Shown here: positions 1,902 through 20,175 of the stretch, piece by piece
How positions within the stretch are numbered: the first letter of the stretch is position 1
How the letters are laid out: each line of letters opens with the position of its first letter
Assembly (NCBI RefSeq): GCF_003129905.1
Contig: NZ_QFFM01000014.1
Location: forward strand, 34,185 to 98,184
Reading direction: 5' to 3'
DNA from: Bifidobacterium callitrichidarum
GTDB lineage: Bacteria; Actinomycetota; Actinomycetes; Actinomycetales; Bifidobacteriaceae
Length of the DNA stretch: 64,000 nucleotides
Notes under the pieces: generated by a model
What the model saw: the letters and a program-made list of their open reading frames with translations, nothing else
What the model was told of the DNA's origin: nothing
Database searches by the model: none
Program-made: the position numbers and the translations under genes

Positions 1902-2294
1902 ATGGAGATGGCGACGATGGCACAGGAGCATGAGGGCGCGGCGGCACTGAACGTGAAGAGCGCGAACGATATCAAGGTGATTGCCAATGTGGGCACGGGC
2001 ACGATGGGGCATGCCATTGCGTTGCAATTCGCGCTCGCCGGCTACCAGACGCGCTTGGTGGGCCGTAGCGAGGCCTCGCTTGACCGTGGTATGGCCCGCA
2101 TTCGGTCGGATGCGGAGACGTTCGCCGGTGCCGGACTGCTACGTGCGGGCGAATCCGTGGATGATGTGCTGGCCCGCATCACGCCGGTCGTCGGCTATGA
2201 GCAGGGTGTGGCCGATGCCGATTTCGTCATCGAATCGGTGGCGGAAAACCGGGGAGTCAAGCAGGACGTGTGGCGCGAAATCGCCCGGTCCTGG
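1902..2294 (+). pseudogene. 3-hydroxyacyl-CoA dehydrogenase, 5' part, cut by prophage
   Basis: The first 131 codons of an NAD-binding 3-hydroxyacyl-CoA (3-hydroxybutyryl-CoA) dehydrogenase are present. The Rossmann motif GTGTMG and the segment ADFVIESVAEN are typical of the family. The reading frame enters prophage DNA at attL (2290-2294) and stops at 2372 after unrelated residues. The remaining 213 codons lie at 19534-20175, in the same frame once the prophage is removed, giving a 344-residue enzyme. The first ATG at 1902 is used, but ATGs at 1908 and 1917 are also possible. The lysogen should therefore lack this activity. Confidence 0.85.
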
Positions 2295-2643
2295 GTGCTA
2301 GACCTTCTTGAAAGACTTTCATACCGCCGTCACCGGAATCGCCGGGGCGGCGGTTGTTTGTATAACCCATAAGTTCGGGCGTGGTCAGATTCGGGTTAAG
2401 CAACGTTGCAACGTCGGTCCCCAGAAAGTCGGCGGCGGCCTGAGTCTCGTTGATTGTCCAAGTAATCTCGCTGCGAAGTTTCTTGGACACTGTTTGTGGC
2501 GCAATGCCAAGTGCGTGCGCTAAATCTTTCTTTTGGATATGGCGGGCGTTGACCATTAAGTTAACGTTCATTGCCACGATATCTTGTGCTTTTGCCCTTG
2601 CGGCTGGCTGTGTCATTGTTGCTGTCATAGCTACATAATACAA
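2257..2643 (-). CDS. Repressor-like HTH protein, prophage (truncated-tail) form; gene spans attP
   Basis: The integrated form is up to 128 residues, with a Cro/CI-type helix-turn-helix at KKDLAHALGIAPQTVSKKLR. The last 10 codons and the stop (TGA at 2257-2259) come from the antisense strand of the host dehydrogenase, beyond the attL core. In the circular phage the frame passes the same core (codon 118, AGG) into 19528-19430, adds 32 residues and ends ALFKLAA. The first in-frame ATG is at 2628; a TTG at 2643, preceded by GAGAAG, is the longest option. The gene diverges from the HTH gene at 2709 across a 65-bp operator-like gap. It is most likely the lysogeny repressor. Confidence 0.75.
   Translation of the reverse strand: MYYVAMTATMTQPAARAKAQDIVAMNVNLMVNARHIQKKDLAHALGIAPQTVSKKLRSEITWTINETQAAADFLGTDVATLLNPNLTTPELMGYTNNRRPGDSGDGGMKVFQEGLAPRTGRFRATRPA
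2284..2300. other. attL: left prophage junction
   Basis: Host sequence CCCGGTCC (2284-2291) runs through the core CCTGG (2290-2294) into phage sequence GTGCTAGACC. Joining the host half here to the host half at attR gives CCCGGTCCTGGACCGGG, a perfect 17-bp inverted repeat with one central base. The core is short but the junction is supported by exact frame restoration of the host gene. Confidence 0.8.
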
Positions 2644-5656: not shown

Positions 5657-5962
5657 ATGCAAATGACACTACCGGGCTTCGATGATTATTACACCCCCAA
5701 CGAGGGCCTGCAGGAGAAGGCCACAAAAGAACTCATCGACTCCTACGTGCAAGGCCGGCCGCTGAACCCCTCCGCTGTGTACATCTGCAAAACGATGATT
5801 AACATAGCCCGCAATTTCGACGCCCTGAATGCCAAGGGCCGCGACACGTCGCGCGTCATGGCCCAGCTTCTCAGCTGGTACCAGGAACTGGAAAACAAGT
5901 CGCCGGCCGCCAAGGAACTGGACCCGGCGCTTACCGCCCTGCTGGCCGAGGCCAAGGCATGA
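5657..5962 (+). CDS. Terminase small subunit (putative)
   Basis: A 101-residue mostly helical protein lies directly upstream of, and overlaps by 4 bp (ATGA), the terminase large subunit. It has the SD GAGGTAACG before its ATG. The segment PSAVYICKTMINIARNFDALNAKGRDTSRVMAQLL resembles the oligomerisation helices of P27-type small terminases. The assignment rests on size, position and helical content rather than on a diagnostic motif. Confidence 0.65.
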   Translation: MQMTLPGFDDYYTPNEGLQEKATKELIDSYVQGRPLNPSAVYICKTMINIARNFDALNAKGRDTSRVMAQLLSWYQELENKSPAAKELDPALTALLAEAKA

Positions 5963-7407
5963 CGGCCACGCCGCGCGGCGGCACACCCAGGAACCCGGAA
6001 CGCGCGACGGACGGGCCCATAGTCGCCCGCTTCGCCCAACTCCTGGGCACCCCTCTGCTGCCGTGGCAAAGACTCGTGGCGGACGTGGCCGGCGAAATCG
6101 ACCCGGACACCGGCACCTACTACTACGACACCGTGATACTTTCGACCCCGCGCCAATGCGGCAAATCGACGCTCGTGGACGCGGTGGACACCAGGAACGC
6201 TCAATGGGGGCCGGACCGGTTTATCTATTACCTGGCTCAGACCGGCAAGGACGCGGGCGACCACTTCAAGAAGTATCTGAAGACCCTTCAGGCTTCGCCG
6301 CTGGCCGCCATCACGTCGCGCCCGTACATGGCGCACGGCTCTGAGGCCCAGCCGTTCCTCAACGGCTCAATCATCATGCCCAAAAGCGTCACGAAGGTTG
6401 CCGGCCACGGTGTCCAGGGCGACAAGATCACGCTGGACGAGGCCTTTTCATTGTCCGAGGAGACGGGCAACACGATACTGGACGGCTTCATGCCGACCAT
6501 GGCCACCCGTCTGAAGGCCACCGGCGTGCAGCCCCAACTGTGGATAACCTCGACCGAGGGGACCGCCGAAAGCACGTTCTTCAACAAACGTCTGGACTCC
6601 TGCCGTGCCGGCGAGCAATCACGCCGCACCTGCTGGTTCGATTTCGGGTTGCCGGCCGACGCGGACCCTGAGGACCTCGACGCCATCATGCGCCACCACC
6701 CGGCGGCGGGGCTCCTGTGGGACAAGTCGCAGCTAATCGACTTCCGCGAACAATTCAGGGACAACCCGGCCGGTTGGGCACGCGCTTTCGGCAACCGCCG
6801 CGACGAAGGCATAACCGACCGCGTGATAGACGAAGCCACATGGGCCGCCACCGCCACGGCACCGGTTGCCCCCGCCGACCTTGACAACAGGCCCGTCGTG
6901 TTCGGCGTGGCCGTCGATGTGGACTCCACGTACACCAGCATCTCGGCCGGCATATCGAACCCGGACGGCACCGTAACCACGCAGCTGCTGAAGATACTTG
7001 ACGGTACCGGATACGCGCCCACCGAACTATCCAGACTATGCGCCGCCTATGGCGCGCCGGTGGTGATAGACAGCCGGGGCACCGCCGCCGACCTGTCCGA
7101 CCGGCTGCACCACATGACCGACCACAACGGCGACCCCATAATAACGTTCGTGGACATGGACGCAGCCGACTACCTGACCGCCGGACAAAGCTACGTGAGC
7201 GGCCTGGTCAACGGCGCGATACTGCACGCCGCCGACCCGGACCTGGACGCCAGCGCCGCCAACTCGGCACGCAAATGGGCCGGTGACGCCTGGCGCGTGA
7301 GCCGACGCGGCTCCACCGGCCTCACGTCCCCGCTCGAAAGTTGCATGCTGGCCGCATGGGGAGCCAGCCACCGGCCCGAGGAGGCAGGCCCCCTGCAGAT
7401 CTACTAA
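5959..7407 (+). CDS. Terminase large subunit
   Basis: A 482-residue DNA-packaging motor and nuclease. The ATPase half has a Walker A-type loop STPRQCGKST at residues 62-71 and a Walker B ITLDE at 157-161 followed by the coupling motif region ITSTEGT. The C-terminal half contains VAVDVDSTYTSIS and later aspartates (VIDSRG, FVDMDAAD), consistent with the RNase H-like nuclease domain. It would translocate phage DNA into proheads through the portal encoded just downstream. Confidence 0.9.
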   Translation: MTATPRGGTPRNPERATDGPIVARFAQLLGTPLLPWQRLVADVAGEIDPDTGTYYYDTVILSTPRQCGKSTLVDAVDTRNAQWGPDRFIYYLAQTGKDAGDHFKKYLKTLQASPLAAITSRPYMAHGSEAQPFLNGSIIMPKSVTKVAGHGVQGDKITLDEAFSLSEETGNTILDGFMPTMATRLKATGVQPQLWITSTEGTAESTFFNKRLDSCRAGEQSRRTCWFDFGLPADADPEDLDAIMRHHPAAGLLWDKSQLIDFREQFRDNPAGWARAFGNRRDEGITDRVIDEATWAATATAPVAPADLDNRPVVFGVAVDVDSTYTSISAGISNPDGTVTTQLLKILDGTGYAPTELSRLCAAYGAPVVIDSRGTAADLSDRLHHMTDHNGDPIITFVDMDAADYLTAGQSYVSGLVNGAILHAADPDLDASAANSARKWAGDAWRVSRRGSTGLTSPLESCMLAAWGASHRPEEAGPLQIY

Positions 7408-7420
7408 CCCCGCATGTCGG

Positions 7421-7460
7421 TGATTGGCGGTGATTGGCGGTGATTGGCGGTGATTGGCGG
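7421..7460 (+). repeat. Four tandem copies of TGATTGGCGG
   Basis: Four perfect head-to-tail copies of the decamer TGATTGGCGG lie in the 98-bp gap between terminase and portal genes. The copies are not part of either coding sequence. They could bind a protein (packaging or regulation) or be a slippage product. Confidence 0.85.
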
Positions 7461-7505
7461 CACGGTGGTGGACAGTCCCGCGCCGCCGCCCGCATAATCG
7501 GCCGC

Positions 7506-8663
7506 ATGAACAACGAACGTCTGAGCCTGTGGCAGCGCGTGAAGCTGGCCGGCCGCGTCCTGACTCGCAGCGGCATGGACGACATGCCCGACGGCATCCG
7601 CCCGCCCTCGCGCGCATCCGCCTACGACCCGCTGGCCCTGTCCACCGTGTTCCGTGGCGTCCAGGTGCTGCAGACCGCCATAACCGGCCTGCCCATCCAC
7701 GAGATGCGCGACGGCCTCAAGCTCGACGGCGTCTCCAGGCTCATCGCCCAGCCCGACGTGAACCGTTCCCGCCGCGACTTCATCGCCGACATGGTGGCGT
7801 CCATGGTGCTCGACGGCAACGCCTTCGTGCGCCTGGTGTCCTACGCCGGCGAAATCGTCAGCTGCGAGGTGCTGCCGCCCAGCCTCGTGACCGTCACCGA
7901 CGACGGCAACGACCCGGCCGCCCCGCGCCTGCGCTACTCGTACCTGGGCCGCGACTACACCTCCGAACAGATCGTGCACTGCAAGTTCCTCAACGTGCCA
8001 GGCCGGCTCAGGGGCCTCGGCCCCATATCGGCCGCCCGCGAGGAGGTGGAGGGCGCGAAGCTCGCCCGCGACTACAAGGCCCGCTTCTACACCGATTCCA
8101 GCAACCTCAAGGGATATCTGAAGACCGACCAGAAAGTGACACCCGACTACGCCAGGCAGGCCAAGCAGGACTGGAAGGCCCAGGGCACCGCCGGAGACAT
8201 CAAGGTGCTGGGAAACAACCTCAGCTACGTTCCCCTGGACATGAAGCCCGCCGACCTGCAGTTCCTCGAGACCCAGAAGTTCGACACCACGCAGATAGCC
8301 CGCCTGCTCGGCATCCCCGCCAGCATCATGCTGGCCGCCGTCGATGGCTCCAACCTGACCTACAGCAACATCGAGCAGTCCTGGATAGAGTTCGCCGACT
8401 ACACGCTGGCCGCCTACACCGGCGAGATAGAAGAGCTGTTCAACAGGCTGCTGCCGCGCGGGCGCACGGCAGCGTTCGACTGGGACTCCAGCCGCCGCGC
8501 CGACATGGCCGACCGGTTCAACGCCTACAAGACCGCGCTGGACGCGGGATGGATGCAGATAAACGAGGTGAGGGCGCGCGAGGCGCTGCCCCCGCTCGAA
8601 ACCAACGAGACCACCAGCAACGCCGGCGACGGCGGGGAAGGGGAACAGGATGCAGCGGCGTGA
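7506..8663 (+). CDS. Portal protein, HK97 family
   Basis: A 385-residue protein forms the dodecameric DNA gate at the capsid vertex. The region LSTVFRGVQVLQTAITGLPIH, then VASMVLDGNAFVRLV and FDTTQIARLLGIPASIM are typical of HK97-like portals. The ATG at 7506 is chosen because the family N-terminus starts here; the frame is open further upstream through the decamer repeats. Its 3' end overlaps the next gene by 14 bp. Confidence 0.9.
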   Translation: MNNERLSLWQRVKLAGRVLTRSGMDDMPDGIRPPSRASAYDPLALSTVFRGVQVLQTAITGLPIHEMRDGLKLDGVSRLIAQPDVNRSRRDFIADMVASMVLDGNAFVRLVSYAGEIVSCEVLPPSLVTVTDDGNDPAAPRLRYSYLGRDYTSEQIVHCKFLNVPGRLRGLGPISAAREEVEGAKLARDYKARFYTDSSNLKGYLKTDQKVTPDYARQAKQDWKAQGTAGDIKVLGNNLSYVPLDMKPADLQFLETQKFDTTQIARLLGIPASIMLAAVDGSNLTYSNIEQSWIEFADYTLAAYTGEIEELFNRLLPRGRTAAFDWDSSRRADMADRFNAYKTALDAGWMQINEVRAREALPPLETNETTSNAGDGGEGEQDAAA

Positions 8664-10242
8664 AATCGGACTGAAGGGCCTGACGCTCAGGACGGCCGAC
8701 GAGGGCGACGGGCGCACGCTCGAGGGCGTGGCCGTGCCGTTCGGCCAGATCATAGACACCTGGGACGGCGCGGAGACGTTCGACCGTGACTGCGTTTTCG
8801 ACGACGTGGACACCGCCAAGCTCTGCTACCAGCACGGCGAACTCATCGGCCGGATAACCGCCGCCGAGAGCCGTGACGACGGCCTGCACATCACGGCCCG
8901 CATCTCGGACACGCAGCGCGGCCGCGACGTGGTGGAGCTGCTGCGCGACGGGGCTCTGGACTCGCTGAGCGTGGGCTTCATCCCAGTGCAGGACGAACTG
9001 GACAAGGCCGGCATCACCCACCGCCGGCGCGTGCGCCTCCTGGAAACGAGCGTGGTCAGCTGGCCGGCCTACGAGGCCGCGAAGATAACCGGCCAACGCA
9101 GCGCCATCCAGGACGCGGCCGGAACGGAAACGTTGGAAAACCAAGCGGACAACGACAAGGAAAGCGAGGAACCCCGCATGGACAAGGAACTACAGGACGC
9201 CCTGAACGCGATTCAGGACGAACAGCGAAGCCTCAAGGCCGCCATGGCCAAGGGCAGCGCGCCCGAACACAAGACGCTGGGCGGCGAATACCGCACCGCC
9301 GGCGACTACCTCCAGGCCCTCTACCGGGGCGACCAGGCGGCCGTGGACCTCATGCACGAATGCCGCGACCTCATCGCCACCGGCGACACCGGCAACACCA
9401 CCACCTGGATTGCCGACGACCTGCGCCTTATCGAGATGCGCCGCAAGGTCACCAACCTGCTCACCCACGACACCCTGCCCGACAAGGGCATGACCATGGA
9501 ATACAACGTCGTGGCCACCGACACCACCAGCGTCGGCAAGCAGGCCACCGAGGGCGACGCGCTCACGTTCGGCAAGGTCACGTTCGGAACCAAGAGCGTG
9601 GCCATCAACACCTACGGCGGCTACACCACCCTATCCCGCCAGGTCATCGAACGCAGCACCACGCCCATGCTCAACACCGCGCTGTCCGCCCTGCGCAACG
9701 CCTACGCCAAGGCCACCGAGAACGCCGTGCGCACGTTCCTGTACGACACCATCGCCGCGCAGCGAGACGCCACGAGCGACGCGAACAAGATCGACGCGCC
9801 CGCCGCGCTCACCGCCATGACCATCGACCAGTGGGCCACGCTCATCATGGACGCCGCCGAACTCGCCGACGACCGCAACGTGAACCTGACCCGCCTGGGC
9901 GTGAGCAAGGACGTCATGGCTGCGCTCATCGCCCTCAAGGACTCCGGTAGCCGGTTCTTCGACCTGTCCGGCGACGGTTCGGACACCATCGGCGACTTCG
10001 ACCTGACCGGCATCGCCGGCAAGTTCCTGCGCCTGCCCGTCCAGATGCTCCCCAAGGCCCCCGAAGGCACCGCGTGCTTCATCGACCCCGAGGCCGTGAC
10101 CGTCTGGGAGTCCGGCGGCCCCACCCAGCTGTCCGACGGCGACCCGACCAAGCTCACCGAAAACTACTCGGTCTACGGCTACATGGCCGTCGCCGCCACC
10201 AACGCCCAGGGCCTCATCCCGGTAGCGTTCCCAAAAGCGTGA
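8650..10242 (+). CDS. Fused prohead protease and major capsid protein
   Basis: One 530-residue frame carries two functions usually made by separate genes. Residues 1-150 are an HK97-type prohead serine protease, with His62 in CYQHGELIGR and the SLSVGF motif with Ser105/Ser107. A helical delta-like linker starts near Met177, which also follows an SD-like GAGGAA and could be an internal start for unfused capsid. Residues from about 210 form an HK97-fold major capsid protein. Self-cleavage would be needed to free the capsid domain. A similar fusion is recalled in very small actinobacteriophages. Confidence 0.85.
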   Translation: MQRREIGLKGLTLRTADEGDGRTLEGVAVPFGQIIDTWDGAETFDRDCVFDDVDTAKLCYQHGELIGRITAAESRDDGLHITARISDTQRGRDVVELLRDGALDSLSVGFIPVQDELDKAGITHRRRVRLLETSVVSWPAYEAAKITGQRSAIQDAAGTETLENQADNDKESEEPRMDKELQDALNAIQDEQRSLKAAMAKGSAPEHKTLGGEYRTAGDYLQALYRGDQAAVDLMHECRDLIATGDTGNTTTWIADDLRLIEMRRKVTNLLTHDTLPDKGMTMEYNVVATDTTSVGKQATEGDALTFGKVTFGTKSVAINTYGGYTTLSRQVIERSTTPMLNTALSALRNAYAKATENAVRTFLYDTIAAQRDATSDANKIDAPAALTAMTIDQWATLIMDAAELADDRNVNLTRLGVSKDVMAALIALKDSGSRFFDLSGDGSDTIGDFDLTGIAGKFLRLPVQMLPKAPEGTACFIDPEAVTVWESGGPTQLSDGDPTKLTENYSVYGYMAVAATNAQGLIPVAFPKA

Positions 10243-10691
10243 GCCCGAGCCCTAATATCCTGCGCTACGGCCCCGTCTCCAACGAGAACGGCGGCGACAC
10301 GGCCACCGTGGACGCCGCCGGCGCGCTCAGCCTGTCCGGCCAGACGAAAGTCGGCTGGTCCGGGCTGAAATGGGAGCAGGATATGACGGCGTTCCCGCCG
10401 GGCGAGACCTTCCAGCTGGGATGCGACAACCTGCCCGCGAACACCGAAATACTGGTCAGGTTCAACGGCCAGAGCGACAACGCTCACCAGTTCCTCTACC
10501 CGGTACGAGGAGACTACGCGGCGGGCGGCGTCATTCCCAAGGACGCCACCAGTGTGCTCATGGCGGTACGCCGCGCCGGCACGGCCAGCGATTTCACCGC
10601 TCAGGACGTCAGGCCCATGGTCAACCTGGGCGAAACGCTCCCGCCGTGGCGCAAGCCCGACGTGACCGATGGGGGGGGGGCGACCCTATGA
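10239..10691 (+). CDS. Head-decoration or tail-associated protein, part 1 (broken at poly-G)
   Basis: This frame begins at a GTG overlapping the capsid stop (GTGA) and runs about 150 residues of beta-rich sequence (SLSGQTKVGWSGLKWEQD and similar). At 10671-10680 it meets ten consecutive G bases, reads GGGATL and stops at 10691. The following frame continues the same kind of beta-rich sequence. With nine or twelve G bases the two parts would join in one frame (DGGGRPYELTNL). It may be a decoration or carbohydrate-binding protein of the virion. Confidence 0.6.
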   Translation: MSPSPNILRYGPVSNENGGDTATVDAAGALSLSGQTKVGWSGLKWEQDMTAFPPGETFQLGCDNLPANTEILVRFNGQSDNAHQFLYPVRGDYAAGGVIPKDATSVLMAVRRAGTASDFTAQDVRPMVNLGETLPPWRKPDVTDGGGATL

Positions 10692-11055
10692 GCTGACCAA
10701 CCTGTGGCCGTACTGGCCTGACAAGGCTACGAACATCGCCGCCGCCGGCCTGTCGCTGTCCCTGACCGGCGACGTGCTCCACCTGACCGGAACCATGCCC
10801 GACACCACCTACAGCCTGCCCGCGCCCGTGGCAGAGGCGTACGGCATCCACCTGGACGCGGGCACGTACCGGCTGGCACCGCTCAGCGACGTGCTCGTGC
10901 TGGTCAGCCGGAACGGCACCGGCAACAGGCTGCTGCGTTCCGACAAGGAACCCATGAGCGCGACCCTCGCGGCCGGCGACTACCGGTTCAGCATCTACAC
11001 GACCAGCAGGACGCCCGACGTGTCGTTCACGCCGGTGCTGACCCGCGACGAATAG
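10669..11055 (+). CDS. Head-decoration or tail-associated protein, part 2
   Basis: A 128-residue frame starts at an ATG that runs into the poly-G tract (ATGGGG) and continues with YELTNLWPYWPDK and a beta-rich domain (LSLSLTGDVLHLTGTM). It resembles the first part in style and probably forms the second domain of the same protein after frameshifting or phase change. No ribosome-binding site is obvious upstream of the ATG, which supports it being a continuation. Confidence 0.55.
   Translation: MGGGRPYELTNLWPYWPDKATNIAAAGLSLSLTGDVLHLTGTMPDTTYSLPAPVAEAYGIHLDAGTYRLAPLSDVLVLVSRNGTGNRLLRSDKEPMSATLAAGDYRFSIYTTSRTPDVSFTPVLTRDE
10671..10680 (+). repeat. G10 homopolymer inside a virion gene
   Basis: Ten consecutive G bases occur between the two halves of a beta-rich virion protein. 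Such tracts slip during replication and can switch a gene on and off. Sequencing error in homopolymers is an alternative explanation. Confidence 0.8.
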
Positions 11056-11071
11056 CAGAAAGGAAAAGGCC

Positions 11072-11404
11072 ATGGCCATCGACACCACCACGCTCGTGAC
11101 ACGTCTGCGAGACGAGGTGAACGTGCCAGCCGGCGACGACCAGCGCCTGGCGGAGAAGATCGCGACGGCCACCGTCTACGTGGACAACGCGATAGGCGGG
11201 GCCAGCGTGGCGGACGAGGTGCGCGCGGACTGCATCGTGGGCTGCGCCGCCGATTTGTACAACAGCCGCGACGCGCGCCTGGGCGTGATGAACGTGGCCG
11301 ACGGCACGCTGGAACCCTACCGGGTGAGCAGCGACCCGCTGCGCAGCGTATGGCCCAAGCTCAACGCGGCCGGCGTGCCGACCGGGGGCCTGGTGGTCGC
11401 ATGA
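11072..11404 (+). CDS. Head-tail connector (gp6-like)
   Basis: A 110-residue protein with an SD AAAGGAAAAGG before its ATG. The mainly helical sequence (LVTRLRDEVNVPAGDDQRLAEKI, then VYVDNAI and CIVGCAADLYNSRDA) matches the style of HK97 gp6/SPP1 gp15 adaptors, which bind below the portal. Its stop overlaps the next start by ATGA. Position after the capsid gene agrees. Confidence 0.7.
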   Translation: MAIDTTTLVTRLRDEVNVPAGDDQRLAEKIATATVYVDNAIGGASVADEVRADCIVGCAADLYNSRDARLGVMNVADGTLEPYRVSSDPLRSVWPKLNAAGVPTGGLVVA

Positions 11405-11787
11405 GCGCGCGCGTGACACGGGAGCGGGACGCGCTCATGGAACTGCTGGAATCCACGTTGGGCGACCTCGTGCAGGTCGTGACCGACGACCTGCAGGCCG
11501 CCCGCGCGTCCCCGGGCCGTGTGGCCGTGTTCGTGGAACCGCCCGACCTGGAATATCCCCGGTGGGGCGACCTGCCCGAGACCACGTGGCGGCTGGACGT
11601 GATAGCTGGCACGATGGCCACCCAGGCCACCGGCCTCGACCTCATCATGCGGGCCATCGACGTGCTGGCCTCGCACGACATCAACATACAGGCGGCCCGT
11701 CCGGTCAGCATGTCCCTTGCAGGCGCGGGCACGGTGGCCGCCTACCAGCTCACACTCAACCCATTGGAACTCATCGAGGAGGAATAA
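11401..11787 (+). CDS. Tail terminator-like protein
   Basis: A 128-residue alpha/beta protein overlaps the connector by ATGA and lies upstream of the major tail protein, where tail terminators or head-tail joining proteins are found. The segment RVAVFVEPPDLEYPRWGDLPETTWRLDVIAG is beta-rich and the end AAYQLTLNPL fits a terminator fold. No diagnostic motif is present, so the role is inferred from position and size. Confidence 0.55.
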   Translation: MSARVTRERDALMELLESTLGDLVQVVTDDLQAARASPGRVAVFVEPPDLEYPRWGDLPETTWRLDVIAGTMATQATGLDLIMRAIDVLASHDINIQAARPVSMSLAGAGTVAAYQLTLNPLELIEEE

Positions 11788-11791
11788 GACT

Positions 11792-12208
11792 ATGGCGAAA
11801 GTACGCACTTTGGGCCCCGGCTCGTTCAAGATCACGGACACCGACACCGGCCGGGACTTCAGCGCCGACCTGACCAAGGCCCAGCTGAACCCGAGCAATT
11901 CGAGTGACGACCCGGTGACCTATCTGGACGGTTCGGAGGAGACGAACACCAGCACCACGTGGACCATGGAGGGCACCATAGGCGACGACTTCAGCCAGGA
12001 CGGCCTGCCGACCTGGTGCTTCGACCACGCCAACGAGACCCTGCCGTTCGAGTTCATCCCGAACAAGGCCGGCGGCATCAAATGGACCGGCGACGTGACC
12101 GTGACCCCGGTGGCCATGGGCGGCGACGTGAAATCCAAGAACACCAACGACTTTTCGTTCCCGGTCACGAACCTTTCGCACGCGGCGTACACGCCCGCCA
12201 CCGCATGA
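11792..12208 (+). CDS. Major tail tube protein
   Basis: A 138-residue beta-rich protein follows a strong GAGGAGG ribosome-binding site, as expected for an abundant structural product. It has a tail-tube-like pattern: an N-terminal recognisable strand, a YLDGSEETNTSTTWTMEGTI hairpin, and a closing GDVTVTPVAMGGDVKSKN segment. It sits before the tail chaperone and tape measure genes, the standard siphovirus order. Confidence 0.75.
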   Translation: MAKVRTLGPGSFKITDTDTGRDFSADLTKAQLNPSNSSDDPVTYLDGSEETNTSTTWTMEGTIGDDFSQDGLPTWCFDHANETLPFEFIPNKAGGIKWTGDVTVTPVAMGGDVKSKNTNDFSFPVTNLSHAAYTPATA

Positions 12209-12594
12209 GCGCCACGGGCCGCGCGCTCATGGTGGTCGGTCAGAAACGGTTCGTGGCCACCATGCGCAAGGCCGGCGCGGACATGGGCGAGCTCAAGGGC
12301 GTGAACCGTCAGGCCGCCGAAATCGCCCTGCCCGCCGTCAGCCGCCTCACCCCGGTGGGCGACACGGGACGGCTCTCCAAGTCGCTGCGCGTGGGAGCTA
12401 CGAAAAGGGCCGGCGTCATCCGCGCTGGCCGCAAGGCCGTCCCGTACGCCGGCCCGCTGAACTACGGGTGGCCCGGCCACAACATACGGCCGCGCCTGTT
12501 CGTCAACGACGGCGTGGCCCAGTCCGAGGACGCATGGCAGCGGCCGTACATGGACTTCATCGAGAAGACACTCAGCCAAGTCAAGGGAGCATGA
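12205..12594 (+). CDS. HK97 gp10-like head-tail/tail completion protein
   Basis: A 129-residue basic protein overlaps the tail tube gene by ATGA. The middle region LTPVGDTGRLSKSLRVGATKRAGVIRAG and the C-terminal LFVNDGV...FIEKTLSQV match the HK97 gp10-like family. In most siphoviruses this gene precedes the major tail gene; here it follows it, a small rearrangement of the usual order. Confidence 0.65.
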   Translation: MSATGRALMVVGQKRFVATMRKAGADMGELKGVNRQAAEIALPAVSRLTPVGDTGRLSKSLRVGATKRAGVIRAGRKAVPYAGPLNYGWPGHNIRPRLFVNDGVAQSEDAWQRPYMDFIEKTLSQVKGA

Positions 12595-12852
12595 ATGTAC
12601 AGCACAGCGAAGGTCACCTATACCGACGGGCACGTGGACACGGCCCCGCTGACCCCGCGCGTGGTCACCTCGTGCGAGGAACACGCCCAGATCGAGGGAT
12701 GGACGCCCGGCGACGGCAGCCGCCTGCGCCAGTCCTACTACATGGCCTATCTCGCCCAGCGCTACGCGGGCAACACGTCCGAACCGTACGAACGATGGCT
12801 GGACGCCGTGGAAGCCATCGACGTGGAGACGCCCGCAAACCCTACCGTCTAG
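12595..12852 (+). CDS. Tail assembly chaperone, short form (G-like)
   Basis: An 85-residue acidic protein begins directly after the previous stop. It corresponds to the G chaperone of lambda-like tails, which coats the tape measure during assembly. Near its end the frame passes A-AAC-CCT (12837-12843), a slippery heptamer, and stops at TAG 12850-12852 unless ribosomes slip back by one base. Confidence 0.75.
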   Translation: MYSTAKVTYTDGHVDTAPLTPRVVTSCEEHAQIEGWTPGDGSRLRQSYYMAYLAQRYAGNTSEPYERWLDAVEAIDVETPANPTV

Positions 12853-13025
12853 CCGAGTGGCCCGACGACTCGCTCGGCCTCATGTCGTTCATCCTGGCGC
12901 GCCGTTTCGGCGGCACGCCATGGCAATGGCGCACCGAGGCCAGCGAGCTGGACTGGGGCACCGGCATACGGCTTTTGAACGAGGAAATGGAACGCATGGA
13001 GGAGACAGGGCATGGCGGGACGTAG
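12840..13025 (+). CDS. Tail assembly chaperone, frameshift extension (T-like)
   Basis: This segment has no start codon of its own but stays open in the -1 frame from the slippery site to TAG at 13023-13025, about 60 codons (PYRLAEWPDDSLGLMSFILARRFGG and on). Fusion to the upstream frame by -1 slippage on A-AAC-CCT gives the longer GT chaperone that links the tape measure with tail tube subunits. It overlaps the tape measure start by 14 bp, as in other siphoviruses. Confidence 0.75.
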   Translation, partial: PYRLAEWPDDSLGLMSFILARRFGGTPWQWRTEASELDWGTGIRLLNEEMERMEETGHGGT

Positions 13026-14955
13026 CGCGGTCATGTCGGTGCGCATCACCGGCAACGCCGACGACGCCGTAAGGGCTTTCGAGAAGACGACCAGCAAGGC
13101 CGCCGCGTTCGGCTCGTTCATGGGCGGGGCCGCGCTGAAGGGCGTGACCGCCCTGTGGGACACCATCAAGGGCTTCTCGAGCGCGGTCATGGACATGTCC
13201 GATTCCACGGACAAGTTCAAGAACACCATGAGCTTCGCCGGCCTGGACACGGCCGCCGTGGACAAGGCGACGGCAGCCGCCCGCAAGTACGCGGACGACA
13301 CCGTGTATGACCTGTCCACCATCCAGAACACCACCGCCCAGTTGGCGGCCAACGGCATAACGAACTACACGGAGCTGACCGAGGCGGCCGGCAACCTGAA
13401 CGCCGTGGCCGGCGGCAACTCGGACACGTTCAAGTCCGTGGCCATGATGCTCACCCAGACCGCCGGCGCTGGCAAGCTGACCACCGAGAACTGGAACCAG
13501 CTCGCCGACGCCATCCCCGGCGCGTCCGGCAAGCTCCAGGAGGCCCTGGCGGCCAACGGCGCATACACGGGCAACTTCAGGGACGCCATGGCCGACGGCG
13601 AGATAACCGCCGACGAGTTCAACCAGGCCCTGCTGCAGCTCGGCATGAGCGACGTGGCCAAGGAGGCCGCCACCTCGACGCAGACCATGGAAGGCGCGTT
13701 GGGCAACCTCGAGGCCGCCATAACCGGCGGCCTGACCGACGCCTTCAACCTGGTCAAACCACTGGTGACCGGGGCCATAGGCAAGGCCGCCGAAACCGTG
13801 TCGGACTTCGCCGGCAAGGCCACCGGGGCCATGAAGGACTTCATCGGCGGCATCCAGGACACCGGCGCGTTCCAGGCCGCCAGCGACATGGTGGGCGCAT
13901 TGGGCGGCGCGTTCCAATCACTGGGCGGCGCATTGGGCGACATCGCCACCACGCTCCTGCCCGGCCTGCAGGGCCTCGGCGACGCCGGCAGCATAGGTCA
14001 GGGCGTGGGCGACGCCTTCGCCGGAGCGGCCGGCGTGGTCAAGACCGTGGCCGACGCGCTCTCATCGTTCGGCGACTGGGTATCCGCGAACGCCGAACCC
14101 ATCGCCAGCGCGCTCGTGGGCTTCGGCACCGGCTTCGCCGTGTTCAAGGTCGCCGGCATCATCCAGGCAGTTGCCGGCGCATTGCAGGGCTTCAGCCTGG
14201 CCACCACGGCCGCCAGCGTGGCCCAGTGGGCGCTGAACGCCGCCATGAACGCGAACCCCATCGTGCTCATCATCACCGCCATAGCCGCGCTCGTGGCCGG
14301 ACTGATCTACTTCTTCACCCAGACCGAGACCGGCAAGCAGATATGGGCGAACTTCACCGAGTTCATATCCACCGCCGTCAACAACATCATCGCCTTCTTC
14401 CAGGGCCTCGGCGACAGCATCGGCCAGGCGTTCTCCAACGCCGCCCGGTTCGCCCAGGACAAATGGAACTCGGTCGTGGCGTGGTTCAAATCGATACCCG
14501 GCATGATAGGAGGCTTCTTCTCCAACGCCGGTTCAATCCTCTACAACGCTGGCAAGAACATTCTGGACGGTTTCCTGAACGGCCTGAAGTCCGCATGGAA
14601 CAACGTGACCGACTTCGTGGGCGGCATCGCCGACTGGATAGCCGAACACAAGGGCCCGGCCTCCTACGACCGCGTGCTGCTGGTCAGAAACGGCCGGCTC
14701 ATCATGCAGGGCCTGGCCAAGGGCATGACCACCGGCTTCGACCGCGACGTGCGCAGTGCCGTGGCCCGCATCAACACCGGCCTGGCCTCCACCGTGCTCA
14801 CCGCGCCCGCCGTGACGGCAACGGGCGGCGACACCGGCGGGGGAGGGGACACGGTGAACGTGTCCGTCACGTTCACCGGGCTCGTGACCGACCCGGACGG
14901 CGTGGCCCGCCAGATACGCCGCGTGTTGAACGACTACGACCGCAAGAGGGGGTGA
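13012..14955 (+). CDS. Tape measure protein
   Basis: A 647-residue protein with long helical, Ala- and Gly-rich stretches and two hydrophobic segments (around GFGTGFAVFKVAGIIQAVAG and NPIVLIITAIAALVAGLIYF). The N-terminal VMSVRITGNADDAVRAFEKT and the repeated FQGLGDSIGQAF-type region are typical of actinophage tape measures. Protein length sets tail length, so this short version predicts a tail close to 100 nm by the usual rule of about 0.15 nm per residue. Confidence 0.85.
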   Translation: MAGRSAVMSVRITGNADDAVRAFEKTTSKAAAFGSFMGGAALKGVTALWDTIKGFSSAVMDMSDSTDKFKNTMSFAGLDTAAVDKATAAARKYADDTVYDLSTIQNTTAQLAANGITNYTELTEAAGNLNAVAGGNSDTFKSVAMMLTQTAGAGKLTTENWNQLADAIPGASGKLQEALAANGAYTGNFRDAMADGEITADEFNQALLQLGMSDVAKEAATSTQTMEGALGNLEAAITGGLTDAFNLVKPLVTGAIGKAAETVSDFAGKATGAMKDFIGGIQDTGAFQAASDMVGALGGAFQSLGGALGDIATTLLPGLQGLGDAGSIGQGVGDAFAGAAGVVKTVADALSSFGDWVSANAEPIASALVGFGTGFAVFKVAGIIQAVAGALQGFSLATTAASVAQWALNAAMNANPIVLIITAIAALVAGLIYFFTQTETGKQIWANFTEFISTAVNNIIAFFQGLGDSIGQAFSNAARFAQDKWNSVVAWFKSIPGMIGGFFSNAGSILYNAGKNILDGFLNGLKSAWNNVTDFVGGIADWIAEHKGPASYDRVLLVRNGRLIMQGLAKGMTTGFDRDVRSAVARINTGLASTVLTAPAVTATGGDTGGGGDTVNVSVTFTGLVTDPDGVARQIRRVLNDYDRKRG

Positions 14956-14958
14956 CGC

Positions 14959-16479
14959 ATGCAGCAGGTGTACCTGTTCATGGACACGGGCGACGGTTTC
15001 CGGCTCCTGAACGACCACACCGCCACCGTGGCCGCCCTCGAGGGCCTGACCGTCCGCTGGGGCACCGACTCGCCCGACACGCAGCCCGACCCCAGCGTGC
15101 TCACGTTCACGCTCAGGGACCGCACGGGACTATTGGCCGGCCGGGCCGCGACCATGGCCGGCGCGCGCGTGCTCGTCCAGATCTCGGAACAGCCCACATG
15201 GGCCGACATGCCCGCCGGAACCTACGCCGCCGCGACGGCCACATGGGCCGGCCTGCACGCCACGTACACGCCCGGCGACCCGACCGGCGTGGACTCCACC
15301 GCGATAACCCTGTTCGACGGCATCGTGAGCACGGGCGGCACCGTCACCCCGGACGCGCGCGGCTACCTGCTGGAACTCTCCGCATCCAGCCGCATGATTC
15401 TATGGAAGCGCCTCCAATCGCAGGGGCCGACCAACAGCGCCGCGAAATGGGCCGGCCTGCACTGGGTGGACATCCCGGTCACAAGACTCGCCACGCTCAA
15501 CAGCCGGGCCACGGCCGCCGGCGCACCTCAGGCCGACGCCGCCGGCCTGACGCGGCCGCCCAATGTGGCACCGTATCCCACGGACGACTACCCCAGCCAG
15601 CTCGACCTGCTGCACCGTATGTACGCCACCGCGCCGGAAATGCCGTTGTGGGGCGAATACCCCAGCAAGGCGTCCAGCCGCATCTCATACACGGCGCTCG
15701 GCACCCCCGCCACGCTTGGTATGGACGCGGCCGGCAGCCTCTACACGACGGTGAACGGCGTGAAGCGCCCCGCCCTGGACGGTTCCGTGGTCGAGGGCGG
15801 CGAATCATACGACGTGCCAGAACCGGTCACCCAGATCACGTTTGGCGTCAAAACCGTGGAGAAGGACAACGACGGCGTCCTGTCATTCAAGGACGGCGAA
15901 ACCACGTTCACGTCCATGGACTCGCTGCCGGCCAACCTGACCGCCACCCAGTCGTCCATGAACGTGGACACCGACGTGGTGACAAGCGACAGCACGGCGG
16001 GAACATGGGGCGGCACCATATGGACGCCGTCGCTGAGCCAGCGCATATCCGCCGCGAACTGGCTTTACGCCGTGAACATGCGAATACGCCCGCAAGGCAT
16101 CGTGTTCGACAGCCGGCGCATAGACCCCGTGAACCGGCCCGAACTGTACGTGAGCGCCCCCAGCGGCCCCATCGTTTTCACCAACGCCTCGATACACCGT
16201 CTGGCGGGCGGCGACGGGCTGCCGGCCTTCACCGGGGCGTGGACCACCATCGGCGGCACGCTCACCTACCGGTGGCGCAACGGAGACCCGGTCCTTCGCC
16301 ATGAGGTGACCGTGTGGCCATTGCCCGCCGCCACCATGACCACACGGCTCAAATGGGCGGACATAGCGGGATGGCCCGCGCAATACCGGGCCGTGGCATG
16401 CACATGGGCCGAACTGGCCGTCATATCCACGTTCGACTCCGCCACCACGACAACCGAAACCGAAAGCGAGGAGCAATGA
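14959..16479 (+). CDS. Minor tail protein
   Basis: A 506-residue, Trp- and Thr-rich beta protein lies directly after the tape measure. Its N-terminus (VYLFMDTGDGFRLLND, then TVRWGTDSPDTQPDPSVLTFTLRDR) is in the style of distal-tail/baseplate hub proteins. The remainder is a long beta-rich body. In this compact genome it probably combines distal tail and tail-associated roles. No enzymatic motif is seen. Confidence 0.65.
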   Translation: MQQVYLFMDTGDGFRLLNDHTATVAALEGLTVRWGTDSPDTQPDPSVLTFTLRDRTGLLAGRAATMAGARVLVQISEQPTWADMPAGTYAAATATWAGLHATYTPGDPTGVDSTAITLFDGIVSTGGTVTPDARGYLLELSASSRMILWKRLQSQGPTNSAAKWAGLHWVDIPVTRLATLNSRATAAGAPQADAAGLTRPPNVAPYPTDDYPSQLDLLHRMYATAPEMPLWGEYPSKASSRISYTALGTPATLGMDAAGSLYTTVNGVKRPALDGSVVEGGESYDVPEPVTQITFGVKTVEKDNDGVLSFKDGETTFTSMDSLPANLTATQSSMNVDTDVVTSDSTAGTWGGTIWTPSLSQRISAANWLYAVNMRIRPQGIVFDSRRIDPVNRPELYVSAPSGPIVFTNASIHRLAGGDGLPAFTGAWTTIGGTLTYRWRNGDPVLRHEVTVWPLPAATMTTRLKWADIAGWPAQYRAVACTWAELAVISTFDSATTTTETESEEQ

Positions 16480-17123
16480 CCAGCAATACACCCATCTACG
16501 GCATCCCATACCCGGACAGCACGGACCTGGTATCCGAGGCACCCGCCCAGCTCAAGACCTTCGCCAACGGCGTCGAAAGCGCCCTGAACCTCGTGGACAA
16601 GCGCGCCACCGTGGCCGGGGCGACACCGGTCATCGCCACCACCAAAAGCGCGCTCGACGCACAAACCGGCGTGACCGGCCAGACCGGCTACGTGTATTCC
16701 GACAGCCTCTATTACAACCGTGGGGCGTACTACTGGAACGGCACGAAATGGGTGCGCGCCACCACCGACATATCCAACCACTTCTTCACCGCGAACAGCA
16801 CCAACTGGAACCGCAACTGGTTCAAGGCCGAAATCATCGGCGACCGCGTGTTCGTGGACACCGAGGTCAAAAAAGTCACCTACGCATCGGGCGGCACCAC
16901 CGACTGGGCCACGGAGAAACTGCTCACGTTCCCCTCCGCCATCGCCCCGGCGAACTACATGGTGTTCCCGGCCATCAGCAACCCGAGCGACGGCACCATG
17001 TGGACATGGGCCGCCAGCGTGGAGACCGGCGGCAACTTCAACCTGGTCAAGCTCAAGGGGGCCTCGAACCTCGCAGTGGGCGGACTCGTGCGCGTCTCCT
17101 GCTCCTGGCAAATCAAGGGGTGA
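16476..17123 (+). CDS. Tail fibre / receptor-binding candidate
   Basis: A 215-residue protein overlaps the preceding tail gene by ATGA. The N-terminal PIYGIPYPDSTDLVSEAPAQL is a common start of virion-attached proteins in actinophages. The middle carries GYVYSDSLYYNRGAYYWNGTKW, a beta repeat common in host-recognition proteins. As the last tail gene before lysis it is the best candidate for the receptor-binding protein. Direct evidence is lacking. Confidence 0.6.
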   Translation: MTSNTPIYGIPYPDSTDLVSEAPAQLKTFANGVESALNLVDKRATVAGATPVIATTKSALDAQTGVTGQTGYVYSDSLYYNRGAYYWNGTKWVRATTDISNHFFTANSTNWNRNWFKAEIIGDRVFVDTEVKKVTYASGGTTDWATEKLLTFPSAIAPANYMVFPAISNPSDGTMWTWAASVETGGNFNLVKLKGASNLAVGGLVRVSCSWQIKG

Positions 17124-17126
17124 ACC

Positions 17127-17366
17127 GTGAACGACGACCTGCTGATTGCACTCGTGGGCCTCGTGGGCGCGATAGTCGGCGCCGCCGGCTCCCAGATGTT
17201 CACCGCCGCCAAGACCCACTTGGAGGCGTACATGCTCGCGCAGGAGATGCTGGCCGACAACCAGCGCCTGTGGCAATGGAACCGAAGCCTCATAGACCAC
17301 ATATACAAGGGCCTAGGCCCGCCGCCCCCGGAACCTCCCGACGACCTGTTCCAACACGAACCCTAG
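17127..17366 (+). CDS. Small membrane protein before endolysin
   Basis: A 79-residue protein starting at GTG 17127 has an N-terminal hydrophobic segment (LLIALVGLVGAIVGAAG), then a charged helix and a proline-rich tail ending near PPPPEPPDD. It lies between tail and lysis genes. It may be a second holin-type or an accessory lysis protein; its size and single membrane span fit either a pinholin-like or a spanin-like part. Confidence 0.55.
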   Translation: MNDDLLIALVGLVGAIVGAAGSQMFTAAKTHLEAYMLAQEMLADNQRLWQWNRSLIDHIYKGLGPPPPEPPDDLFQHEP

Positions 17367-17381
17367 AAACGGAGAACCGCC

Positions 17382-18179
17382 ATGAAGAACTGGGAAACGC
17401 TAGAACCCGACCAGACCATGCTGCTCACCACCCACTACACTCCGGGACGCTCGGGCAGGCGGATAGACAAGATTCTGGTGCACCACAACTCCGGCCCGCT
17501 GAGCATAGAAGGCTGCTGGCAGGTATGGCAGACCCGCGCCGCGTCCGCGCACTACCAGGTGGACGCAGCCGGGCGAATCGGCCGCCTGGTCAACGACGCG
17601 GACACCGCATGGCACGCCGGAGACTGGGACGCCAACACCACCAGCATCGGCATCGAGCACGCGGACATCACCAGCCAGCCATGGACCATCAGCGAAGCCA
17701 CCCTGGACAACGGCGCGCACCTCGTGGCCGCCCTGTGCCATCACTACGGGCTCGGCCGCCCCGAATGGCTCAAGAACGTGTTCCCCCACAACCACTTCCA
17801 GGCCACGGAATGCCCGGCAAGCATCGGAGGAACCCAGCGCGACGCCTACATGGCGCGCGCCCAACAGTATTACGACCAAATGGAAGGAGACGACATGTCA
17901 CCCGAGGAAGTCTGGAACGTCAACATCAACGGCGTGAAGGCCCGCGACCGCCTCATCGGCATAGACAACGCAGCGAACGGCATCAACAACCGCGTCACCA
18001 GCGAGGAATGGAAATGGCTCACCGGCCGCGCCTACCGCACCATGGCCCTGCTCAAGAAACTCTGCGGCATCAAGGACGCGGATACCACAATCCCCGAAAC
18101 CGCGACCGTGCAGCTGTCCGACGCGCAGATGGACCAGATCGCAGACAAGGTGGCCGCACGACTCAAGGACAACGCATGA
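17382..18179 (+). CDS. Endolysin, N-acetylmuramoyl-L-alanine amidase
   Basis: A 265-residue lysis enzyme. The N-terminal amidase_2/PGRP-like domain has His34 in LVHHNSG, the AHYQVD segment with His57, the IGIEHAD segment, and the C-terminal zinc region HNHFQATECP. It cuts the bond between muramic acid and the stem peptide. A C-terminal segment of about 110 residues after EGDDMS is mostly helical and may bind the cell wall. The holin gene overlaps its stop. Confidence 0.85.
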   Translation: MKNWETLEPDQTMLLTTHYTPGRSGRRIDKILVHHNSGPLSIEGCWQVWQTRAASAHYQVDAAGRIGRLVNDADTAWHAGDWDANTTSIGIEHADITSQPWTISEATLDNGAHLVAALCHHYGLGRPEWLKNVFPHNHFQATECPASIGGTQRDAYMARAQQYYDQMEGDDMSPEEVWNVNINGVKARDRLIGIDNAANGINNRVTSEEWKWLTGRAYRTMALLKKLCGIKDADTTIPETATVQLSDAQMDQIADKVAARLKDNA

Positions 18180-18444: not shown

Positions 18445-19284
18445 CTACAGGGCGCAGGCCATCACCATGTCGCGCAGATGCTCGGGAGGCATGGCCACGT
18501 AACGCTGCGTCGTGGCCACGCTCGCGTGCCCCAGGAACGCGGACACCGCCAACAGGTCCCGCGTCGCCGTGTAGGCATGCGTGGCCGCACGGTGACGCAG
18601 GCTGTGCGTGGAATACCCATCGGGCAACGCCGGCCCGATAATCTTCCCGACACGCCCCGGACTCAGATGGCTTTCGCCGTGGTCGTTGCGCGACGGGAAC
18701 AGCCAGCCGTCACCGGCCAGGCTGATGCGCGCGGCCAACCGGGGAGACAGCGGCACCAGCCGCTGCTTGTCGCCCTTGCCCCGCACCACAAGGCTCTGGT
18801 TGCCGAAGCCGTCCGTGATTATGTCGGTCCCGCGTATCCCCGCGATCTCGGAACGCCTCAACGCGAGCTCGGCACCAAGCTTGACCATGAGCGCGTCACG
18901 CTCGCTCAGGGTGTCCAGCGCCAGCCTGATACCCGCCTCGGGACAAGGGCGCGGGTGAGGCGAGGAACCGGCCACATGCGGCAGATTCACGGACGGGTCA
19001 ACATCGATGCGGCCGGTGGCCAGCATCCAGGCGAAAAAACTGGACATCGTGGCCCGTATGCCCTTGCGCGTCTCGGCCGCAAGATGCTCACGGCCCATCC
19101 ACGCTTCGCAATCCTCATACGTGACCTCATACGGCGGCTTATCAACCCAGCGGGCGAAGCCCGAGAGCTTCACCCGCCGCGTTGTCACCGTGCTGTCCTT
19201 CAGCCCGGAGGCCTTCAGATACACCAGCCATTGCTCTGCCGAGTCTTTCCAACTGTCCGGCCACGGTGTTTTCTGTAATTGCAT
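18445..19284 (-). CDS. int: Tyrosine integrase, arm-less type
   Basis: A 279-residue tyrosine recombinase. The core-binding domain starts at once (residues about 13-95, SAEQWLVYLKASGLKDSTVT), with no separate N-terminal arm-binding domain. The catalytic domain has Arg143 in ALRRSEIAGI, a Lys near 169-172, His227-x-x-Arg230 in HSLRHRAATH, His253 in LGH and Tyr262 in QRYVAM. It would recombine attP with attB. An excellent SD AGGAGGTGG lies upstream of its ATG, inside a hairpin. It is read leftward, as is the repressor gene upstream of it in the circular phage. Confidence 0.9.
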   Translation of the reverse strand: MQLQKTPWPDSWKDSAEQWLVYLKASGLKDSTVTTRRVKLSGFARWVDKPPYEVTYEDCEAWMGREHLAAETRKGIRATMSSFFAWMLATGRIDVDPSVNLPHVAGSSPHPRPCPEAGIRLALDTLSERDALMVKLGAELALRRSEIAGIRGTDIITDGFGNQSLVVRGKGDKQRLVPLSPRLAARISLAGDGWLFPSRNDHGESHLSPGRVGKIIGPALPDGYSTHSLRHRAATHAYTATRDLLAVSAFLGHASVATTQRYVAMPPEHLRDMVMACAL

Positions 19285-19335: not shown

Positions 19336-19409
19336 GGGGGTGTAGCTCAGTCGGTTAGAGCATCGGACTCATAATCCGCCGGTCCACAGTTCAAGCCTGT
19401 GCGCCCCCA
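19336..19409 (+). tRNA. tRNA with anticodon CAT (elongator Met-type)
   Basis: The 74-nt sequence folds into a cloverleaf: acceptor GGGGGTG with CGCCCCC (one G-T pair), D stem GCTC/GAGC, anticodon stem with loop CTCATAA (anticodon CAT at 19370-19372), and T stem CACAG/CTGTG with loop TTCAAGC. CCA is not encoded. A G-C first pair and the lack of three G-C anticodon pairs argue against initiator tRNA. It lies inside the prophage, between integrase and attR, and so appears phage-borne. Ile with modified C34 is a less likely identity. Confidence 0.9.
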
Positions 19410-19429
19410 CGGTTTCCTTTCTCCTCTCT

Positions 19430-19528
19430 TCATGCTGCTAGTTTGAATAATGCCCGCGCGGGCTCATTCTGTAACCACAATGGCTCGACCTTCGGGGCCG
19501 CCGGCCTGAGGCTCACTGGGGCTTGGAC
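19430..19528 (-). other. Latent 3' coding segment of the repressor (used only in circular phage)
   Basis: Read leftward from the attR core, the phage DNA keeps the frame of the repressor open for 32 codons to TGA at 19430-19432. The encoded tail starts VQAPVSLRP and ends ALFKLAA. In the lysogen this piece has no start signal and is disconnected from the repressor; excision joins it to codon 118. The terminal LAA resembles the end of ssrA tags recognised by ClpXP. Confidence 0.7.
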
Positions 19529-19539
19529 CCTGGACCGGG
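19529..19539. other. attR: right prophage junction
   Basis: The core CCTGG (19529-19533) is followed by host sequence ACCGGG. With the left host half this reconstitutes CCCGGTCCTGGACCGGG. The codon after the core TGG continues the host dehydrogenase frame (TGTERFAPKDAIF). Confidence 0.8.
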
Positions 19540-20175
19540 ACCGAACGGTTTGCGCCGAAGGATGCGATTTTCGCCACCAACACGTCCGGCTTGAGTCCGA
19601 CCGCCATCCAGTCGGTATTGGAGCGTCCCGCACGTTTCGTGGTAGCCCACTTCTGGAATCCGGCGCAGCTAATGCCGCTGGTGGAAGTGGTGCCCGGTGC
19701 CCATACCGACCCGCATGTGGTGGATGTGACGTTCGACCTCATGAATCTCATCGGCAAGAAGCCGGCGAAAATCAAGAAGGAATCGCTGGGCTTCGTGGGC
19801 AACCGACTGCAGATGGCCGTGTTGCGTGAGGAATTCCACATCATCCAGGAAGGCATTGCGGACGCCGCCACCGTGGATGATGTGATGAAATACAGCCTCG
19901 GCCGACGCTGGAACCTGGTCGGCCCGGTGGCCAGCATCGACCTCGGCGGCCTCGACGTGTTCTACAACATCAGCACCTACCTGTTCGACGACATGGACAA
20001 CGGCACCGGCCCTTCGCCGCTGCTCGCCGAAAAAGTCAAGGCCGGCAACCTTGGTGCCAAAACCGGACGCGGGTTCTTCTCATGGCAGGGCGAGGACGGC
20101 AAGCGCGTCATCGAGCAGCGTGACAAGGCGCTGCTGCGCGCGCTCAAAGAGGATGCCGCCGAAGCCGGAAAGTAA
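19531..20175 (+). pseudogene. 3-hydroxyacyl-CoA dehydrogenase, 3' part, cut by prophage
   Basis: The remaining 213 codons of the split dehydrogenase run from attR to TAA at 20173-20175. They include ATNTSGLSPTAIQSVL and FVVAHFWNPAQLMPLVEVV, where the catalytic His is expected, and the C-terminal helical domain with GFVGNRLQMA. Without its own start the piece should be silent; an internal ATG at 19591 would give only a partial fold. Excision of the prophage restores a complete gene. Confidence 0.85.

Follow-up and report, generated by a model that had tools for sequence, protein, structure and literature searches.

Integration-dependent immunity, in which the phage attachment site (attP) lies within the repressor gene and integration shortens the repressor, has been described for phage BPs (PMC4557955). 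As presented in PMC6109161 (2018), the same switch was proposed for the Bifidobacterium breve prophages Bb423phi2 and 689b-1, which occupy a tRNA-Met gene adjoining metA; this proposal for other bifidobacterial prophages is already known, and it had escaped the initial annotation of the locus described here, which knew of no bifidobacterial example. A second strategy, tRNA-dependent lysogeny, in which the bacterial attachment site (attB) overlaps a host tRNA gene across a short core, the host tRNA is left unrestored by integration and lysogeny requires the tRNA of the phage, was reported for Fionnbharth and the Gordonia phages OneUp and Mollymur, with secondary sites in protein genes of which just three core positions are strongly conserved (PMC10865867). 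As given there, the two strategies are both named, as separate systems; among open-licence papers, no other was found to contain both terms. On tRNAs borne by bifidobacterial phages, no literature was found among open-licence papers, and the words repressor and attP are absent from PMC8705816, which concerns bifidobacterial prophages.

We analysed a stretch of 64,000 nucleotides from Bifidobacterium callitrichidarum (the window), which carries a prophage inserted in a dehydrogenase gene. Our joint reading, to which we assign a probability of roughly 0.8, is that integration would stabilise the repressor of this phage, that its regular site would probably be a tRNA gene, and that the copy in the dehydrogenase gene would be a secondary-site lysogen.

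The attachment junction and the two repressor forms

The element begins with a leftward repressor gene, present in its prophage form at 2257-2643 (- strand), which encodes a helix-turn-helix (HTH) protein of Cro/C1 type according to an HTH_26 match above its cut-off and PHROG transcriptional repressor families. This protein is presumably the immunity repressor. A small HTH protein in cro-like position is encoded divergently (2709-2954, + strand; HTH_3 and HTH_26 above cut-offs), and a tyrosine integrase of 279 amino acids is encoded leftward at the other end (int, 18445-19284, - strand; PF00589, PHROG integrase and tree), so that open reading frames (ORFs) and domains bear out the gene order of the initial annotation. 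Two 15-nt direct repeats, 87% alike, are located between and at the start of the divergent genes (2648-2662 and 2712-2726); they are possible operators, or may be due to chance. Domain and PHROG matches identify structural and lysis genes at 5959-18179 (+ strand), including terminase (5959-7407), portal (7434-8663), head protease/capsid (8650-10242), tape measure (13012-14955) and amidase endolysin (17382-18179).

The interrupted host gene was identified as a 3-hydroxyacyl-CoA dehydrogenase gene by the 3HCDH_N and 3HCDH domains of its ortholog L201, whose NCBIfam matches are all under their cut-offs. Its first part lies at 1902-2283 and its second, recognised by ortholog comparison, at 19544-20175 (both + strand). 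Strong matches to the joined dehydrogenase were found in 35 of the 112 genomes of the genus, its own included; from the 34 others, nine orthologs were aligned as protein at the junction, and 11 orthologs were compared as DNA. The initial annotation had taken the pentamer CCTGG, found at 2290-2294 and 19529-19533, as the attachment core. Joining the host gene there leaves 21 bases, i.e., the seven codons ARSWTGT, which are absent from all nine protein-aligned and all 11 DNA-aligned orthologs, and because the orthologs lack them, these 21 bp belong to the phage. When the CG at 2282-2283 (attL junction) is instead joined with the CG at 19542-19543 (attR junction), the product, VWREIERFAPKDAIF, is identical to ortholog L207 and aligns with nine orthologs without gaps; the dehydrogenase gene of a phage-free strain should, from this comparison, read GAAATCGAACGG. 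These gapped protein and DNA alignments replaced an ungapped ortholog comparison, which the 21-bp difference had made misleading.

CCTGG turns out to be part of an inverted repeat of attP. One copy is located in the repressor-side arm (2284-2302) and the second in the integrase-side arm (19515-19541), which holds the other half of the repeat and was aligned with the uninterrupted sites of relatives. The corrected attP, in repressor direction, reads CTAGCACCCAGGACCGGGCGGTCCCGGTCCAGGGTCCAAGCCCC and equals the uninterrupted integrase-side site of the relative G070 at 41 of 47 ungapped positions, whereas the alignment of the CCTGG join extends over just 16. The corrected join adds seven codons in frame to the repressor, and a natural protein, P0034, which ends LTLAA, contains the sequence TGRSRSRVQAPV that this join predicts. 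A CCTGG core would demand that the extra 21 bp were present in the dehydrogenase attB prior to integration; the pentamer does occur at both prophage ends, and joining there leaves both frames open, but the 21 bp occur in 0 of 11 aligned orthologs, complete attP in relatives where it is uninterrupted, and appear as protein in P0034. We consider such an arrangement close to untenable, and CCTGG was rejected as the core in favour of the bare CG, on the orthologs that lack the 21 bp and on the attP of relatives. A short repeat at both prophage ends can thus mislead, and the empty site of relatives is what fixes the junction.

The corrected junction falls within the repressor ORF, as in phages of the BPs type. 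The ORF passes from phage DNA through the CG into host antisense DNA, reading APRTGR-FRATRPA, and host DNA encodes its last seven codons and stop. The prophage form comprises 128 codons from TTG 2643, or 123 if counted from ATG 2628, which is the likely start. In the rejoined element of 17,260 bp, which the excised circle would carry, the frame stays open to give APRTGR-SRSRVQAPVSLRPAAPKVEPLWLQNEPARALFKLAA, and the viral 3' end (19430-19541, - strand), reconstructed from the prophage ends and matched by the TGRSRSRVQAPV of P0034, runs to a stop at 19430 with the terminal residues ALFKLAA. The reconstructed viral repressor is 157 residues long from TTG 2643 or 152 from ATG 2628. Counted from TTG, both forms share 121 residues, after which 36 residues (SRSRVQAPVSLRPAAPKVEPLWLQNEPARALFKLAA) follow in the viral form and seven (FRATRPA) in the prophage form, so that their C-termini are FKLAA versus ATRPA. 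The initial annotation had correctly described a leftward HTH gene crossing attL in frame, a prophage protein of about 128 residues and a rejoined frame ending ALFKLAA at 19430. Its finer figures needed correction: codon 121 rather than 118 is the last one shared, the host contributes seven codons and a stop rather than 10 and a stop, the viral tail is 36 rather than 32 codons long, and the joined sequence is EGLAPRTGR-SRSRVQAPV, not EGLAPR-VQAPV in a protein of about 150 residues. Its reading frame was nonetheless right because 21, the number of overlooked bp, is divisible by three.

That the element is a defective remnant which no longer excises, with a switch that is historical here, is compatible with our reading. 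It is only 17.3 kb long, its junction homology amounts to CG, and no excised circle was found for the window's phage; however, the ORFs for integrase, terminase, portal, capsid, tape measure and endolysin are all open, and PMC6109161 notes the existence of actinophages of such size. We regard a remnant as unlikely.

Tail ends in rejoined prophages and natural repressors

The end of the viral tail resembles the tag of the host transfer-messenger RNA (tmRNA), AKSNRTEFALAA, which ends FALAA, and the host genome encodes ClpX. The AlphaFold model of P0007, a natural viral form, has a mean pLDDT of 70.7; it shows the body as a helical domain of good confidence, and almost all of residues 88-131, the tail included, score below 50 and are predicted to be disordered. 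By analogy with BPs (PMC4557955), the tail would be read by ClpXP or a similar protease. In the mechanism that we propose, integration at an attP within the repressor gene would cut off the viral 3' end encoding the FKLAA tail, and loss of this ssrA-like end would turn a repressor that is probably degraded into a stable one holding lysogeny. Since the degron would be lost wherever attP splits, any site that soon provides a stop codon without introducing another degron should support the switch.

We rejoined 13 more prophages from 12 genomes, which together with the window gave 14. Eleven of the 13 were taken as a repressor and an integrase lying about 16 kb apart on one strand, and two, both of G056, were matched across contigs by their cores; the 14 rows are partly non-independent, as G070 and G067 are close to each other, and so are G027 and G051. 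Of the 112 genomes, 55 had any repressor-like match and 42 any integrase-like match; those matches that were unpaired at about 16 kb on one strand lie outside the 14, as does G054, in which a repressor ending MTLAA adjoins a tRNA-like stretch in the other orientation. Bifidobacterial repressor genes that span attL and would acquire an LAA end on excision, for which the initial annotation had proposed a search, were found in 8 of the 14 rejoined forms (the window, G070, G067, G010, G018, G041, G020 and G056b). The remaining tails end in QAA (2 of 14, G027 and G051), LTA (G080), LSA (G056a) and LVD (G084 and G089). No tail in the other two frames ends in LAA or AA (0/28; three are empty and many very short), nor does any prophage form end in LAA (0/14), and as a rough background, 1443 ORFs read from stop to stop in the examined loci, each at least 250 codons long, include 10 with an LAA end. 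The LAA end is not universal, because the LVD ends stand beside CLRT and ICGT in repressor-like ORFs that precede int on two distant contigs (L113 and L114). More generally, HTH-like ORFs upstream of int were also observed on distant actinobacterial viral contigs (L113, L114, L099, L115, L117, L121, L127, L129 and L131-L133); several of them end in AA or AD, and others do not.

Truncation of the repressor and removal of its ssrA-like C-terminus by integration, read from rejoined ends in the window, were seen directly in relatives. A metagenome viral contig, L088, contains an uninterrupted repressor ending RLSFILAA, with int starting 16 bp further on. Among the 45 natural relatives listed, which are known as database proteins alone, 17 end in LAA, 16 of them with repressor body and junction motif. 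Near-identical repressors occur in long forms (P0004-P0009 and P0011, with WTSGYPRGPRSKPMPRLILSLAA and variants) and in short forms ending WTSGL (P0002, P0003, P0010 and P0012), and further long/short pairs are P0013/P0014 and P0018/P0019. The short database form probably represents the integrated one, as its end is tRNA antisense, as in the prophages that were read. The natural tail of P0032 is exactly that of G051, which had been rejoined beforehand. Other natural relatives, e.g., P0016, P0022, P0028, P0030, P0040 and P0041, have ends that fit neither form. For the window's own phage, a search with the corrected join returned 26 proteins, none of which covers the tail and which do not include P0034; the CCTGG-joined repressor had no match among annotated phage records, nor had P0034 among viral contigs. 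Among the same contigs, P0005 matched only the window's phage and IMG contig 2791355245_000006, which stops at the repressor and cannot be rejoined.

The tails were found to recur on different repressors. Tail ATPRPMVQIHAGLSRLSLILAA is present on three differing bodies (P0036, P0042 and P0044) and in G018, tail YPRGPRFKSMPRLILSLAA is shared by P0007 and P0029, and the tail of P0013 is also on P0033; G027 and G051 have integrase, tail and tRNA in common, and their repressor bodies differ. The tail apparently moves together with attP and int, as would be expected if attP were a point of crossover between phages, which suggests an exchange of tail-int modules between repressor bodies with the degron-like end mostly retained. 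Two natural proteins, P0039 and P0041, combine a repressor start with an integrase end (PF00589) and are apparently deletions that fuse both genes.

It could be argued that the tail and its LAA end are coincidental, with a viral form equally stable and integration merely trimming a dispensable end, as two of the 14 rejoined tails ending in LVD might suggest. Against this, 8 of the 14 rejoined forms and 17 of the 45 natural ones end in LAA, compared with 10 of 1443 in the background and none of 28 in the other frames, and the degron-like end is retained on differing repressor bodies, which makes coincidence very improbable. The integration-dependent switch put forward in the initial annotation is thus well supported by natural long and short forms and by the tag-like tail, while the core, and hence part of the joined sequence, on which it had been built were wrong. 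With both forms of natural repressors at hand, integration-dependent immunity becomes testable in gut bifidobacteria.

The phage-borne tRNA gene and the probable regular site

The phage carries, between attP and int, a tRNA gene with anticodon CAT (19336-19410, + strand; Met according to ARAGORN but, by elimination, probably Ile2; Rfam tRNA 66.1 bits), and G027 and G051 have a CAT tRNA gene at the same place (67.2 bits each). Neither the meaning of this gene nor the likelihood of a secondary attachment site had been recognised in the initial annotation. The sites of relatives that were read are host CAT tRNA genes of two types, one of which is, by elimination, probably Ile2, although ARAGORN labels it Met: all eight genomes searched also possess an elongator-Met-like gene, and the initiator type differs in appearance. 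The integrases of the window, G070, G067, G027 and G051 form one clade (100/100), and the four relatives are all located at the Ile2-type gene. In G027 and G051, the stretches shared with the site at the tRNA gene are 18 and about 19 bp, respectively. The host tRNA gene of G027 is split, leaving a remnant of 26.3 bits, below the cut-off of 29; the remnant in G051 is a chimera that scores 49.5 bits, above that cut-off (intact genes, 66-67 bits), for which reason tRNA loss in G051 is uncertain. A pattern search of these two genomes found the elongator-like gene and otherwise only the remnant and the phage gene. An L31 leader adjoins both the host's intact tRNA gene (L196) and the G051 site (L043), which marks them as the same locus; the leader match at G027 (L042) is under its cut-off.

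The repressor-side attP arm matches the antisense of the host's intact CAT tRNA gene (G000:C8) at 19 of 23 positions, compared with 17 of 23 for the best of 127,956 window positions on both strands, attL itself aside. Its match to the occupied dehydrogenase site is 10 of 23, which 7.5% of positions reach and which is no better than chance. An 11-mer common to attP and the host tRNA gene, AGGACCGGGCG, was set aside as evidence for a tRNA site, as it is weak alone: it occurs at three places in the genome, one of them intergenic, and its reversed control at 11.

The phage thus bears a tRNA, yet the attB occupied in the window's lysogen is a dehydrogenase gene and overlaps no host tRNA gene. The phage-borne CAT tRNA and the likeness of attP to host tRNA antisense suggest that the regular site is probably a CAT tRNA gene, which the phage would break and replace with its own copy; the copy in the dehydrogenase gene would probably be a lysogen at a secondary site, formed by a phage that has the equipment for tRNA-dependent lysogeny. 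Alternatively, the dehydrogenase gene may itself be the regular site, the integrase having been retargeted and the tRNA gene being an ancestral relic, with the repressor switch unchanged. The phage is indeed located there, the host's own tRNA gene of this type is intact and empty, and the repressor-side attP arm now lacks a tRNA 3' half. P0001, which differs from the window's protein by one substitution (GLEPR for GLAPR), has the same dehydrogenase-derived end; the site may therefore have been used more than once, or one clonal lineage may be involved. Not least because of P0001, retargeting deserves to be kept in view, but we think it rather doubtful, as 10 of 23 attP positions agree with the dehydrogenase site, a chance-level match with only CG shared at the crossover, against 19 of 23 for the tRNA gene, and the four nearest integrases are located at the tRNA gene.

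If a tRNA gene is the regular site, a single attP might serve two switches: the repressor would be stripped of its degron, and at the regular site an essential host tRNA gene would be broken and replaced by the phage copy. Because the phage carries a tRNA, its attP need not rebuild the host gene, and repressor bodies, degron tails and target sites would thereby become exchangeable. We see this fuller proposal as evenly balanced between right and wrong. If true, it would link two unusual lysogeny strategies at one attP and would allow the phage to settle at sites of almost no homology, such as the dehydrogenase gene, with immunity still gained.

Several features of these sites were observed in addition. 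The arm upstream of int, within the viral repressor coding region, contains a near-perfect long palindrome of 19 to 28 paired bases with a loop of 4 to 8, which pairs a tRNA 3' half with an inverted copy of that half. It is clear in 9 of 12 scanned sites (L040, L041, L042, L044, L045, L047, L049, L053 and L063) and marginal in the window, whose attP palindrome barely exceeds shuffles; none was detected in the L088 and G018 sites. The displaced tRNA 3' halves in the integrase-side arms carry T-loop variants, GGACC in G070, G067, G041, G056 and G018 and GTACC in G027 and G051, where functional tRNA genes have GAACC (antisense); it is odd that the same place was altered seven times. Elsewhere in the same genome, a phage-like array (G000:C4:519-6868; L197, L002) holds about 18 tRNA genes and a second tmRNA (tag AKNVSSRLVLAA).

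Comparison with known systems

In its layout, the window's phage resembles BPs as described in PMC4557955: attP lies within the repressor ORF, integration shortens the repressor, the viral repressor has an ssrA-like end, and rep and int are leftward with a cro-like gene divergent. Degradation and repression have been demonstrated for BPs, whereas for the window's phage they are predictions; its repressor and integrase come from a different phage group, and a tRNA gene stands between its attP and int. Closer in host are Bb423phi2 and 689b-1, which, as given in PMC6109161, are likewise bifidobacterial prophages, measure about 18 kb and carry int and the repressor at opposite ends, and whose reconstructed viral repressor also has an ssrA-like C-terminus. 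These prophages have a tRNA-Met site, a 39-bp core and an extra tail of 18 residues, in contrast to the dehydrogenase site, CG junction, 36-residue tail and own tRNA of the window's phage.

With Fionnbharth, OneUp and Mollymur, as these are described in PMC10865867, the window's phage shares a phage-borne tRNA of the type targeted by its integrase's relatives, a predicted short match between attP and the host tRNA gene, and probably a secondary site in a protein gene with few bases in common, of the kind reported there. Unlike theirs, the window's lysogen sits outside a tRNA gene. Judged from its genes and attachment sites, what is new here is probably the combination, in one phage, of the parts of integration-dependent immunity with those of tRNA-dependent lysogeny, in what is probably a secondary-site lysogen.
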